NCBI GenBank assembly: GCA_027492585.1
Contig: JAPUEK010000041.1
Coordinates: 1-64,000 of the forward strand
Direction of reading: 5' to 3'
DNA from: Paracoccaceae bacterium
Lineage (GTDB): Bacteria > Pseudomonadota > Alphaproteobacteria > Rhodobacterales > Rhodobacteraceae
DNA: 64,000 bases
Part shown: positions 6,740 through 12,529 of the stretch, one piece after another
Position numbering within the stretch: position 1 is the first letter of the stretch
How the letters are laid out: the number at the start of each line of letters is the position of its first letter
Notes under the pieces: model-generated
What the model was told of the DNA's origin: nothing
Seen by the model: the letters and a program-made list of their open reading frames with translations, nothing else
The model's database searches: none
Made by a program: the position numbers and the translations under genes

Positions 6740-8538
6740 TCACCCGCCCAGTTCGGGGATATCTCCTCCCGGCGCAGAATATGTGCCGGCCCGCACCTTT
6801 GGCCAGATTTCTGGGCGTTTTGCCACTTCGGATATCTGTCGTCCAGGAGCAACCTGCTCAAAAATCCGGTTCACCTCGGTAGCCCAGTCGTAGAGCAGCC
6901 GCTGGAATTCGTTCGACACGCGCTGGCGCTTCCATATCTGTTCGAAATCGATCCGATCACCCAGCCGTTCCGCAACAACCGATACCGTGTAGGTCGCGAT
7001 ATTGGCATAGCCCTGTCTGAAGACGGCCTTCGCGTCCTTGGTCTTGATCAAGGCTTCAACTGTCTTGGACACGATGACCTTGGCGATCATGGCCCGATAC
7101 CATGCGGCGTCGAGCGGTTCGGGCACGATCGCTGAACCGTCGTCGAGCGCAGCCATGAAGGCCGCGAAGTTCTTCTCTCCGGCAAGCGCGACCTGGGCCG
7201 GCTTGCCACGCCAAGCTTCGTGATACTTCGCCACATCGTTCTTCGACAGCTTGCGTCTTGTCGGAATGGCGTCGGCGATCTTCTTCTTCTGGGCGGGCGT
7301 CGTGCCCTCCCGCAGCAGCATCACCTGATAGGCTCCGGACGCGCGCTCGTAGAACCAGCGCCCGACGCCGTCGGGGCACCAGGTCTCGTTGGCCAGTTTC
7401 TCCAGCTGGACATGGAACGGCCTGTTTGCCGAAAGATCGGAGGTCTTGACCGCGTTCTGGCTGTTCGCGAAACGCGAGATGTTCGCGATCAACCGTTCCC
7501 GGCCCAGCTCCTCGGCCCCTTTGAGAACGATGATCTTTGCGGGCACCATGACGTTGCCCAGATCGAGCGTCCGGTTCTCCCGAGCGGCGAAATAGATCGA
7601 GGATGTGGTCTGACCGCCGTTGACGATCTGCAGACCTTTCAGCAAGGAAATTCCGATGCTGCCGTCTTGGCAGCGCCCGAAGGTGGCTTCGTCACAGACG
7701 AGGACGAGGCCGTTGTTGAAGGCCATGAAGTGCTCGGGCTCACGCGCGAGCGTTTCGGCGATACCCTTGTCACCTTGCCCCGGGCTCCGAGGAATGTGCG
7801 GACGTTTGCTTCAAGCAAGCGGCTGCCGAAGCGTTCGTAAAGGCCGCGGATGACCGGACCCGGAACCGCAGCCAGTGCATATTCGTAGTCAGCATCAGGA
7901 TCGGGGACATGCACGCAAGGCAGAGCGCGACCGATGGTCTGCTCGAAACTGATGGCAACCTCTTCGCGCGGTTTGCCAACCGTGTGGCGATACAGCCGCT
8001 CGATGTCCATCGCCTCGATGGCGACGACCCGGCCGTGAACCTCCTTGGTCGAAAACTGTTTGGCCTTGGTCTTCCCGTCGGTGATGACGAAGACCCGAAG
8101 CTGGTCGAGGTCGGCCCAGAGGTTGGCGACGGTGCTGATCAGGCCATGGACATCATGCGACGGTTCCACCTTGCCCAGGAGTTTGCCGTTCGACGCGTGG
8201 AACAGGAACCGGACGCCTTCGGCCGCAACGCTTCCCACTACAGGGTCGCCGACCGGAGAAATCTCCTCGCTCCCAAGGTAATGCGTGACGAACAGGTCAA
8301 GCCGCGTCTCGTCCGACGACAGCGCGTAGCCGGTGATCCTGATCTTTCCTTGGACCGTGCCGCTCCAGTGGCAGATCGTCGCCGGCTCGCAGATGCCGGC
8401 GTTCGCGACATGCTCCATGACCAGTTCGGCGAAGACGAGCTCTTCGGATGGGAACGGCCCTTCGTTGGCCTGGACACGTTCCGCGATCGTGCCATGCACC
8501 AGCGCGCGAAAACTGTGGTGAAATTCCTCAAGGCTCAT
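6740..8538 (-). pseudogene. AIPR family (abortive infection phage resistance) protein, frameshifted
   Basis: The gene encodes an AIPR family protein, but one base is missing near 7769 and it now reads in two frames. The N-terminal part (8538 down to about 7770) ends in the family block YERFGSRLLEANVRTFLG then GKVT; the C-terminal part (down to 6740) resumes with KGIAETL and continues through MAFNNG and QIVNGGQTTSSIYFA, the family hallmark. Restoring one base gives about 599 residues, a normal AIPR length. Its start overlaps the DUF4420 stop by 11 nucleotides, so it was the last gene of the Z1-DUF4420-AIPR operon. AIPR proteins are linked to abortive infection, but their mechanism is not established. 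Either a true pseudogene or a sequencing error. Confidence 0.88.
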
Positions 8539-9544
8539 CTTGCATCAATCCAAAACTGCGAAAGACATCATCGACAGGCGTTGCCGCCTGTTCTAGGGCA
8601 TCGACATCAAGCGTATAGATCGCTTTGCGGATATGCGCTGGAACGGCAGCGCGCCGCAGGCACGGAAAGTCTTCTCCGACGAGGAAGGCGCGACCATCAG
8701 ACAGAAGGAGCTTTCGCCCATAGTGCTCCGCATGATCATCCTGGTAGCCTGAGACGAGGATGAGGGCTTCGAACACGCGCGACAGGCCTGCCTGCGCCAT
8801 GGTTTCGCGCAGATGGGCGACCATCCCGGCCAGATCAGTGCCATCATCCGTGACCTCGAACCTCAGGGCTGCGAAGAACATCGGAGTCTTCTCGGTGTCC
8901 AACTGTTCCATGCTGTTGATACGGGCAAGGAACGCCCCGCCTGCCAGCGAGCTCTTGACCTCGACCGCGCCCGTCCCGATGTGAAAATCCTGTGCGGCGT
9001 GCAGCGGGCCTTGCCAGCAATCCACTGCCGCACCGCCGAGCCTGGTCTGCATGAGGCGGTCCAGGAACCACAGTTCCCCCATCAGGCCTAGCTGTTTCTC
9101 CGGCGACAACGGGCGGCGTTTCCGCGCCATGAATGCCTGCCAGTCCGCAACGCGGCCGACGAAAATGCGGGCCAGCTCCCGCGGATCGGTCGTCCCTGCC
9201 GCATCAAGGCAGCGCAGGACATCTGTCGTCATGACGGTGAAGATGTCGAGAGACCCTTCGGCGCGCCGGACCAGCGCGACGGCGGTGCGGTCGCCGAACA
9301 GATGATCATCCTGCACCATCACGACGTCGAAACCCTGCCCATCCGGCAGACCGCCCGGCCCGGGTAGCGTCATGCGCGGAAAGCTGACGATCAGGGCTTC
9401 ACTCGCACCTGGGAACCGGCATCCGGCTTCAACGCCGACAGCCCCGATGTCGGTCAGATGCACGAACTGCCAGTCAGCCGACGCCTCCTGCCGGGCAAGC
9501 ACGCGCCAGGAACGGAGAAGCCCGTCTTCAGTCCACCCAGTCAT
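8528..9544 (-). CDS. PD-(D/E)XK motif protein (DUF4420), putative restriction-type nuclease
   Basis: DUF4420 proteins belong to the PD-(D/E)XK nuclease fold and occur in operons with Z1, AIPR and MutL/MORC-like ATPases. The 338-residue product is full length. The nuclease core is visible in the middle: LGLMGELWFLDRL supplies the helix Glu, followed by a His/Asp-containing strand (QDFHIGTG) and the EVKSS motif near residue 205. The start ATG at 9544 lies 17 nucleotides inside the end of the Z1 fragment, and the 3' end overlaps AIPR by 11 nucleotides, the packing of a once-functional operon. It is the only intact member of the island, so its activity without Z1 is doubtful. Confidence 0.88.
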   Translation of the reverse strand: MTGWTEDGLLRSWRVLARQEASADWQFVHLTDIGAVGVEAGCRFPGASEALIVSFPRMTLPGPGGLPDGQGFDVVMVQDDHLFGDRTAVALVRRAEGSLDIFTVMTTDVLRCLDAAGTTDPRELARIFVGRVADWQAFMARKRRPLSPEKQLGLMGELWFLDRLMQTRLGGAAVDCWQGPLHAAQDFHIGTGAVEVKSSLAGGAFLARINSMEQLDTEKTPMFFAALRFEVTDDGTDLAGMVAHLRETMAQAGLSRVFEALILVSGYQDDHAEHYGRKLLLSDGRAFLVGEDFPCLRRAAVPAHIRKAIYTLDVDALEQAATPVDDVFRSFGLMQDEP

Positions 9545-10148
9545 TCATCGCCCCCCAGAGCACGCTGTTGGCCATGTAGTCGGCATTGCTGACACGACGT
9601 GATGAAGGGCTTCCAGGGAAGCTGATCGCCCAAGCAAGAATAGGGCCACCTACCTTCAGTTCGTCAATCTTGCTGTGTGCAGGATCAAGCAGGTAGAGCA
9701 TCAGAAGCCCGCGATCCCGCCGCGGCGCCGCGCCCTGATCGACCGAACCGAAGCCCAGGATGTTGCGGATTGCGACGCCGCGCGGCTCGTCCGGCGGTGT
9801 TGCGTCCTGATCGCGGTCCTTGTCGCCGCGCCAAGTCTTTCGGGTCAGGTCCAGCGCCGCGCGCCATTCTGCTTCACTCAGGTCGACGGCCTGATCTCGG
9901 GGCGAGATCAGCGTCTTGATCGAATAGCGGTCCGCCGGCTCGGATTGGACAGCGCTGCGCTTCATCATGTTGACCTCGAGACCTCCAATCGTATTGGGGG
10001 CCTCGCCTCCGCCGATCAACGCAACGGTCCAACTGGTGAGTTCGCCGTCCTTGTTCATTTCGTCGATGAAGTCGGCGATCAGTGGGCTGACCCGCGGAAG
10101 CTGCCGCCTCGCCTGAAATACGAACGGAACAGCGACAACCCCGCGCAC
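9528..10148 (-). pseudogene. Z1 domain protein, C-terminal fragment only
   Basis: The fragment matches the last part of Z1 proteins, large ATPase-related components of restriction-like operons: the blocks GELTSWTVALIGGG, YSIKTLISPRDQ with VDLSEAEW, and near the end GLLMLYLLD and WAISFPGS. Complete Z1 proteins are about 900 residues, so roughly three quarters is missing from the N-terminus. An in-frame TAG lies at 10149-10151 and the frame beyond it has no Z1 similarity. Opposite this junction a plus-strand frame resembles the start of a phage-type integrase. The usual upstream partners of Z1 (GHKL ATPase, cytosine methyltransferase, Vsr) are absent. Confidence 0.85.
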
Positions 10149-10290
10149 CTATTTTCTGCGACCGCCATCGCGTCCATTGGGCTTCAGGCGTAAGTGGATC
10201 GTCCGCAGGACCGTTCCCGAAGAGCTGCACGAGATCGTCGGCAAGCGCGAGCTGGTCTTGTCCCCGACCCTGCGCGGGATCATCCACCTC
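10141..10290 (+). pseudogene. Possible remnant of a tyrosine recombinase (integrase) N-terminus
   Basis: In the plus-strand frame starting at 10141 the translation contains RTYFLRPP, FRRKWIVRRTVPEEL and HEIVGKREL, which resembles the N-terminal recognition region of many phage-type integrases (pattern Tyr-Leu-Arg, Phe-Arg-Arg-x-Val-Pro-x-x-Leu, Gly-x-Arg-Glu). The similarity fades after about 50 residues, with no catalytic Arg-His-Tyr region. It abuts the truncated end of the Z1 gene on the other strand, suggesting an insertion or recombination removed the rest of Z1. The match is short. Confidence 0.38.
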
Positions 10291-10374
10291 GGTCTGCTCG
10301 GTGCTGGCACGGCTCTGACTGCCGTCTGTAGGCAGATTGTACCGTCGCCAACTATCGCGGATGCCGAAAATTGA

Positions 10375-10818
10375 AAGCATTTTGCCACTTCGTTATCCGG
10401 CGGGAAAGCCTCGCCGCTCGGCCTTATGGGGAACGTCCTTCGACTCAACCGGCTTGAGGGCGGACATTACGCCAAGCCTTTCGCTGGTGGAGGCGGCTCA
10501 GCGCTAGGGCTGCCGTTCCACGGGCATGTGAGCGAGATTCACCTCAACGACTTGGACGCCCACATCGCAGCCCTTTGGCAATCGATACTTGGCCGAACCG
10601 AGGATCTCATCGAGCTTATGATGTCAGTCCCGGTGACAATTGATGAGTGGCATCGGCAACGCCAAGTATATCTCGACCGACCATCGCACACAGACCAGCT
10701 TGAGTTGGGCTTTTCGGCACTCTTCCTCGCCCAACACACCATGCAGCGCCGCAGCCTCAATCGGGTCGTCGATGGCAGACCGCTCCATCAGGCAGCGGGG
10801 CGGCGGCTGTCAGACTGA
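10375..10818 (+). pseudogene. Dam-type DNA adenine methyltransferase fragment
   Basis: The plus-strand frame shows the N-terminal half of a D12-class adenine methylase: SGGKAS (normally PGGK), GGHYAKPFAGGG for the AdoMet-binding FxGG motif, HVSEIHLNDLD, then VTIDEWHRQRQVY and LELGFSALFL. Similarity stops near 10740 and the frame terminates at 10818, before the catalytic DPPY motif. The upstream in-frame TGA at 10372 leaves no proper start. The fragment is an orphan relic on the edge of the defence island, not a working enzyme. The AdoMet motif makes the family call fairly safe. Confidence 0.7.
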
Positions 10819-10825
10819 TTGCCTC

Positions 10826-12529
10826 TCAGGGCATGACCTCGAAGCGGTCCACGTCGACCATGCCGTGATCGGTGATCTTCAGGTGCGGGATCACCGGCAG
10901 GGCGAGGAAGGCCAGTTGCAGGAAGGGTTCCTCCAGCACCACGCCCAGCGATTTCGCGGCCGCGCGCAGGGCGATGAGATCGTGATGGACCCTCTCGAAG
11001 GGCTCAAGGCTCATCAGCCCGGCGACCGGCAGGGCGAGTTCGGCCAGCACCCGGCCCCCTTCGACCACCACGAAGCCGCCCTCGATCTCCCCCAGACGGT
11101 TGGCGGCAAGCGCCATGTCGGCATAGTCGGCGCCCACCACGGCGATGTTGTGATGGTCATGGCAGACGGTGGAGGCGATGGCCCCGCGCTTCAGCCCGAA
11201 GCCCTGCACGAAGCCCGTCGCGCGGTTGCCGTTCACGCCATGGCGCTCGATCACCGCGATCTTGATCAGGTCGCGGGACAGGTCGGGGCGCTTGTCGCCA
11301 TCCTCCGGCGCGATGTCGAAGGTCAGATGCGGGGTCAGGATCTTGCCGGGCAGGATGCCGATCACCGGGGTTTCAACCCGGTTTCCGCCGGTGCGGAAGT
11401 GCTGCGGCTCCAACTTCGGGGCCTTGACCGACTGGCGCGCCACCGGGGGGATGCTGCCACGGGCGGCAAAGGCCTCTGCCGTCACCTCTACCCCGCCGGC
11501 AAAGACCATCGAGACCTCACAGCCCTCAAGCGAGCCGATCACCGCGATATCGGCGCGCTTGCCCGGCGCGATCAGCCCGCGATCCTTCAGCCCGAAGGCC
11601 TCCGCCGCGGACAGGCTCGCGGCGCGGTATGTGGCCAGCGGCGAGGCGCCGAGGGAAATCGCGGTGCGGATCAGATAGTCGAGATGGCCATGCTCGGCAA
11701 TGTCGAGCGGGTTGCGGTCATCGGTGCAAAGGCAAAGGTAAGGCGCGTGACGCTCCGTCAGCAGCGGCACGAGGGCGTGCAGGTCCTTGGAGACGGAGCC
11801 TTCACGGATCAGCACCCGCATCCCCTTCCGCAGCTTTTCCAGCCCTTCTTCCGCCGTCGTCGCCTCATGCTCGGTGCGGATGCCGGCGGCGATATAGCCG
11901 TTCAGATCCTTGCCGCGCAGAAGCGGCGCGTGGCCGTCGATGTGGCGGCCGGCGAAGGCCTGAAGCTTCGCCATGCAGCCGGGGTCGCGGTGAAGGACGC
12001 CGGGATAGTTCATGAACTCCGCCAGCCCGATCACCCGCGGATGATCCATCAGCGGCGCGATATCCGCCGCCTCCAGCCGCGCGCCGGTGGTCTCCATATG
12101 GGTGGACGGCACGCAGGAGGAAAGCTGCACGCGGATGTCCATCAGCGTCAGGGAAGAGGCTTCGAGGAAGTAGTGGATGCCGGTCAGCCCGCAGACATTG
12201 GCGATCTCATGCGGGTCGCAGATGGCGGTGGTGACGCCGTGGGGGGTGACGCAGCGGTCGAATTCAAAAGGGGTGACGAGCGAGGATTCGATATGGAGAT
12301 GCGTGTCGATGAAGCCGGGGACGAGGATCTTTCCGGCCAGATCCACCTCCCGCCGCCCCGAATAGCTGCCGAAGACCCCGACGATGGTGTCGCCGCAGAT
12401 CGCCACATCGGTTTCGACGAGATCGCCGGTGATGAGGTCGAACACCCGCGCGCCCTTCAGTACCAGATCGGCGAGGGTGATGCCCCGGCCCTGGTCGATG
12501 CGGTCGGCGAGGGGGGCTTTGGCGGTCAT
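10826..12529 (-). CDS. ade: Adenine deaminase
   Basis: The enzyme deaminates adenine to hypoxanthine in purine salvage. The 567-residue product has the amidohydrolase metal motif DTHLHIESS after a beta-strand lead-in, the EFMNYPGV block, [12 protein letters not shown] and CTDDRNP, and the C-terminal cap region with CHDHHNI found in Ade-type deaminases. The start at 12529 ([12 protein letters not shown]) is supported by an AAGGAG ribosome binding site; the frame stays open for 61 codons upstream but overlaps the divergent transporter. It is monocistronic. No hairpin with a T-run was found below 10826, where it faces the methylase fragment. Confidence 0.93.

Follow-up and report, generated by a model that had tools for sequence, protein, structure and literature searches.

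A very probable remnant of an MZA anti-phage operon, apparently inactivated recently, in a Paracoccaceae bacterium

Which defence system do a truncated gene, an intact gene and a gene in two frames belong to when they still lie in operon order, and what became of the rest of it? This question is raised by positions 6740-10148 of the window, the 64,000-nucleotide stretch of Paracoccaceae bacterium DNA that we analysed, where an initial annotation had proposed a decayed defence operon of Z1, DUF4420 and AIPR genes in tight overlapping order. Four minus-strand ORFs are found here (9528-10148, 206 aa; 8528-9544, 338 aa; 7639-8538, 299 aa; 6740-7726, 328 aa), and the trio indeed overlaps tightly, by 17 bases between the first and second genes and by 11 bases between the second and third, both overlaps being identical in locus L060 of Rhodobacter viridis (order Rhodobacterales), the best named complete Vsr-Dcm-mzaABCDE locus. 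The top PADLOC and NCBIfam profile matches of the three genes are MzaC, MzaD and MzaE of the MZA system, and the C-D-E gene order of complete relatives is kept, while no window piece reaches the NCBIfam cut-offs for MzaC, MzaD or MzaE. We conclude that 6740-10148 is very probably the remnant of an MZA anti-phage operon that appears to have been inactivated recently, comprising an mzaC tail, an intact mzaD and a broken mzaE. The proposal of a decayed defence operon was therefore sound but overlooked that the system already has a name: MZA (mzaABCDE) is an anti-phage system from Gao et al. 2020 (as cited in PMC9523054), and the excerpts of PMC9523054 describe mzaABCDE as validated and mzaA as encoding a sigma factor. 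The locus is thus an ordinary decayed copy of an already described system.

The first gene of the trio is the C-terminal remnant of mzaC, which encodes a Z1-family protein (9528-10129, minus strand, delimited by the PADLOC profile and by alignment to L060). The 206-aa ORF corresponds to positions 769-945 of the 952-position PADLOC MzaC profile (E=2e-36) and is matched weakly by the shorter NCBIfam MzaC model (2.6e-5); a Pfam search of this ORF returned no match. The part in frame, 187 codons up to 10091, is equivalent to residues 767-953 of the 953-residue L060 MzaC (83% identity). At the DNA level the alignment to L060 mzaC passes a gap near 10091 that shifts the frame, then extends for about 38 bases to 10129, an extension defined solely by the continuity of the L060 alignment, and the alignment to mzaC of a second relative, L045, continues for only about a dozen bases beyond the break. 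Farther on, mzaC similarity was not supported across 10085-10420, where the scores of 72 for L060 and 64 for L045 stayed below the highest shuffled scores of 75 and 79, respectively (60 simple shuffles for each of the two mzaC genes). The surviving mzaC is accordingly the last ~187-200 codons of 953, and about 79-80% of the gene is gone. A large N-terminal truncation had been recognised and estimated at about three quarters, yet the loss is larger and includes the Pfam Z1 domain itself, which occupies residues 433-667 of L060 MzaC and lies wholly outside the part that survives in the window. A plasmid search with the DNA around the break (9960-10840) gave no match. Repeats in the window were considered as deletion marks and rejected: the 8 direct families of 14-17 bases and the 9 inverted pairs of 14-24 bases are all imperfect and were taken as chance.

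The second gene, mzaD (8528-9544, minus strand), encodes a full-length DUF4420 protein of 338 aa, as initially proposed, with 61% identity to its L060 and 67% to its L045 counterpart. It was identified with Pfam (DUF4420, 208 bits, cut-off 27), PADLOC, NCBIfam and a motif alignment; against the NCBIfam model NF041934 it scores 292 bits, below the cut-off of 420, as does L060 MzaD (282). Residues E157, D186 and E195-V-K197 are kept and are invariant in all nine aligned sequences, and E157, D186, E195 and K197 probably serve as catalytic residues in a PD-(D/E)XK nuclease. Relative to L060 and L045, MzaD (8531-9544) is far more divergent than MzaC and MzaE (61-67% versus 79-85%). Structure prediction from nine sequences gave a mean pLDDT of 57 for MzaD.

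The third gene, mzaE, is present over its full length but split between two reading frames, which join at about 7765-7780, in agreement with the frameshift originally noted in AIPR. Its 5' part (7765-8538, minus strand, about codons 1-258) carries AIPR_N (132 bits, Pfam cut-off 28) and ends at the frameshift, from which the 5' ORF continues in the wrong frame to 7639; its 3' part (6740-7780, minus strand) carries the AIPR domain (242 bits, cut-off 25) in the other frame, the listed ORF starting at an ATG at 7726. Both parts were delimited by comparison with L060 MzaE, to which identity is 79% before and 80% after the frameshift. Prediction of the L060 MzaE structure from 10 rows, including both mzaE pieces of the window, gave a mean pLDDT of 40; neither this model nor that of MzaD was good enough for a fold search, and a sequence search of solved structures at E<=0.1 matched neither L060 MzaE nor the window MzaD. 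With L060 MzaE as query, 102 plasmid and 20 phage records matched, all at under 60% identity, and 80% or more of the query was covered at a single place in 17 of the plasmid and 5 of the phage records; a viral-contig scan with the same query revealed no relative.

In a draft genome of 100 contigs, a single change of frame in mzaE, a gene otherwise conserved at about 80%, could in principle be a sequencing or assembly error, as could the truncation, in which case the strain would possess a working system. We regard this explanation as very improbable. The mzaC break lies inside an 87.8 kb contig and is accompanied by a second frame change, and mzaB, the rest of mzaC, Dcm and Vsr were found nowhere in the genome (4.14 Mb), which is rated 99% complete. 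No other mzaC piece is present anywhere in it. Likewise, mzaB, encoding the MutL-like ATPase, is absent from window and genome but was found in both relatives searched alongside; no C5-methylase was detected in the genome, the search being positive in 10 of 14 control genomes, nor was Vsr, which was recovered from both relatives and from 5 of the 14 controls. The upstream ATPase, methylase and Vsr genes are therefore missing, as had been surmised. For the sigma factor gene mzaA, tblastn gave no match in the window, and the MzaA profile gave three matches in the genome that cover the sigma part only (one protein of 677 aa and two of about 300 aa); these lack the N-terminal match seen in MzaA of both relatives and appear to be ordinary sigma factors. 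The idea that the lineage never had Dcm and Vsr, raised by L045 and L066, which show neither, was dropped because L060 carries both just upstream of mzaA and because the contigs of L045, L049 and L066 end near the operon. The source genome of L045 (G205) has Vsr near the end of another contig.

Complete operons do exist in relatives, as the initial annotation had anticipated. Fifteen MZA-type loci were read with wide flanks (the eight named loci and seven others scoring 177-284 bits), and mzaB, C, D and E occur together in 14 of them, the exception, L048, being cut by a contig end; an MzaA match is present in 12, Dcm in 11 (one partial, at the edge of the locus) and Vsr in 10 of the 15. Within the family, the MzaD model was matched in 32 of 394 genomes, including the window's own, and none of the 394 passed the curated cut-off. 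We read 29 of the 32 other DUF4420 places, leaving out three further weak ones that gave no locus, and found a Z1-protein match beside 27, an AIPR match beside 27 and both beside 25. Twenty-two of these 29 are weaker places at which the reading covered about 1.5 kb of flank, so that a Z1-protein match there (21 of 22; AIPR, 20 of 22) says nothing of the length of the Z1 gene; full Z1 length was read only at loci with wide flanks. These counts do not fit a family in which DUF4420 and AIPR stand alone and are never associated with a full Z1, and because Z1 and AIPR matches adjoin most other DUF4420 places, the Z1-DUF4420-AIPR trio is a conserved unit. At two DUF4420 places, L030 and L031, the AIPR match is short and weak (L030) or lacking within about 1.5 kb, and these may be further remnants. 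On the basis that the complete L060 proteins themselves score below the NCBIfam equivalog cut-offs and that no family genome passes the MzaD cut-off, the profile scores indicate that the window copy and its relatives are a divergent branch of MZA.

Comparison with known systems places the window closest to MZA, with which it has in common the best matches of MzaC, MzaD and MzaE and the C-D-E order, and from which it differs by the absence of mzaB, of most of mzaC and of a recognisable mzaA and by an mzaE in two frames. L060 MzaE shares 46% identity with a plasmid protein of Thalassospira marina that carries the annotation MzaE. The complete relatives also contain the same parts as the operons of MORC/paraMORC GHKL ATPases with methylases, Vsr and AIPR, as far as these are set out in the excerpts of Iyer, Abhiman and Aravind 2008 (PMC2292703), whereas in the window both the operon ATPase and the methylase are gone; the terms 'Z1 domain' and 'sigma' had no match in the text of PMC2292703. 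Similar parts, namely a PD-(D/E)XK protein, a cytosine methylase and AIPR, make up the embedding-derived 'type II' system in the excerpts of PMC9523054, whose authors find it reminiscent of mzaABCDE yet only about 20% identical to mzaBCDE, and which we liken to the window by its description. The Corynebacterium diphtheriae BH8 island, with a Z1 helicase, Dcm, DUF4420 and an EcoRII-like enzyme, has Z1, DUF4420 and a Dcm-like methylase in common; the excerpts of PMC5379612 name no AIPR or MutL-like ATPase there. No paper on the MZA mechanism was among the matches listed in our literature searches.

The surroundings bear on how the remnant came to lie where it does. On the left side are a SRAP gene and an imuB-type polymerase gene, presumably together with imuA and dnaE2, and on the right side an adenine deaminase gene. 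Between mzaC and the deaminase gene, on the plus strand, lie a DUF6538-like stretch and a fragment of a D12-class adenine-N6 DNA methylase gene. The former is a short open stretch (10183-10371) whose positions 10189-10263 match DUF6538 below the Pfam cut-off (E=5e-4, 20.2 bits, cut-off 27). DUF6538 is an N-terminal domain of tyrosine recombinases, and 10189-10263 is possibly an integrase N-terminal scrap of a mobile element that adjoins the mzaC break. The methylase fragment (10361-10818) is matched by PADLOC MTase_II (4e-32) and PD-Lambda-5_B (3.5e-31) and, just short of the cut-off, by Pfam D12 (21 bits versus 22); the profile match stops at about position 103 of the 130-aa ORF 10426-10818, and the first codons, read by eye, lie in another frame from 10361. 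Two defence-type genes, the D12-class adenine methylase and the MZA remnant, have thus decayed at one site. The G+C content is 60-63% for the remnant and 57% for the methylase fragment, compared to a window mean of 66.7% (standard deviation 3.6, 500-base steps), and the low-G+C remnant and fragments look like debris of an imported island. There is no tRNA in the window.

These features bear on whether the operon was ever complete in this lineage. The piece could have come in already truncated by horizontal transfer, together with the methylase and integrase scraps, and we consider this quite possible without expecting it to be the case. A G+C content modestly below that of the flanks would accord with such an arrival, but would be equally expected of a complete imported island that was truncated later. 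The adenine methylase fragment and possibly the integrase scrap do adjoin the break, and in the 12 loci of relatives that were read around the imu/SRAP genes no neighbouring MZA gene was seen, an absence that counts for little since only 4 of the 12 reach the SRAP end, one of them being cut by a contig end after 271 bases. Arrival in truncated form is in any event compatible with the reading of the locus as an MZA remnant and concerns only the place of truncation. Under that reading, the ancestor would have resembled the Rhodobacter viridis operon, with Vsr, Dcm, an mzaA sigma factor, an mzaB MutL-like ATPase, an mzaC Z1 protein, an mzaD nuclease and an mzaE AIPR gene; all but the last fifth of mzaC, together with all the genes upstream of it, would have been lost, either within this lineage or before the piece arrived, and mzaE would have gained its frameshift.

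The decay looks recent from the pattern of codon changes. We counted changes unique to the window, L045 or L060 at sites where the other two agree, by codon position 1/2/3. Those unique to the window number 11/2/39 in MzaD, 3/3/22 in the MzaC tail, 12/7/40 in the first and 11/5/46 in the second part of MzaE, a pattern that resembles that of the intact L045 and L060, which show the same third-position trend and from which we infer that decay is recent; L060 MzaD (16/11/37) in fact exceeds the window's MzaD in changes at the first two positions. Only in the first part of MzaE do the changed amino acids outnumber those of both relatives (16 in the window, 9 in L045 and 8 in L060), a slight hint that constraint may have relaxed there.

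The same counts speak to the idea that MzaD, perhaps with a re-initiated AIPR part, has been kept as a reduced working nuclease module. An intact mzaD with a conserved motif, whose changes fall mostly at silent positions, would be consistent with such a module. On the other hand, the mzaC tail and both mzaE parts display much the same silent-site pattern, so that recency alone explains it and the pattern is uninformative on whether mzaD is in use, and the ATPase and Z1 parts of complete relatives are absent; retention as a module thus strikes us as very unlikely. The remnant most likely provides no phage defence, because MzaD has no partner left once the ATPase and the Z1 domain are lost, although the intact mzaD weakens the case for loss of all function.

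What the complete system does may be approached through its parts. L060 MzaB has a GHKL ATPase domain and weak matches to MutL models, and L060 MzaC matches the PADLOC helicase model over 245-648. On the basis of these features, the MzaD motif and the partners Dcm, Vsr and AIPR (in the excerpts of PMC2292703), we tentatively propose, at somewhat short of even confidence, that complete MZA is a restriction-like ATP-driven nuclease joined to an abortive-infection protein. MzaB and MzaC would form an ATP-driven DNA clamp and translocase that places the MzaD nuclease on unmodified phage DNA, Dcm would mark host DNA, Vsr would repair the deaminated products of the Dcm mark, and MzaE would add abortive-infection activity.

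The sigma-like MzaA has a domain content of its own. Sigma-70 regions 2 and 4 are present in all 12 MzaA proteins of this branch that were scanned, and ankyrin repeats in 11 of the 12 (not in L067). GcrA-like helix-turn-helix copies occur in 5 of the 12, with 3, 3, 4, 1 and 1 copies, three being identical where aligned in L066 (MzaA proteins at L061:2439-5654, L050:5641-8856, L066:2557-5619, L065:3270-5654 and L047:6325-8760). MzaA of L060 and L045, the closest to the window copy, has sigma regions and ankyrin repeats but lacks GcrA copies. No mention of GcrA was found among the matches listed in a literature search. In this mostly alphaproteobacterial branch, MzaA might conceivably mimic the transcription machinery of the host, detect when a phage takes over promoters under sigma or GcrA control and then set off the ATPase-nuclease part, a speculation that we deem unlikely.

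The locus is an ordinary case of defence-system turnover, in which this copy has decayed and complete operons persist in related genera. Its MzaD, MzaE and MzaC tail allow a dead copy to be compared with close intact ones, and the remnant directs attention to intact operons, for example the one in Rhodobacter viridis (L060), with a sigma-like MzaA that is, in our reading, the least understood part of the system.
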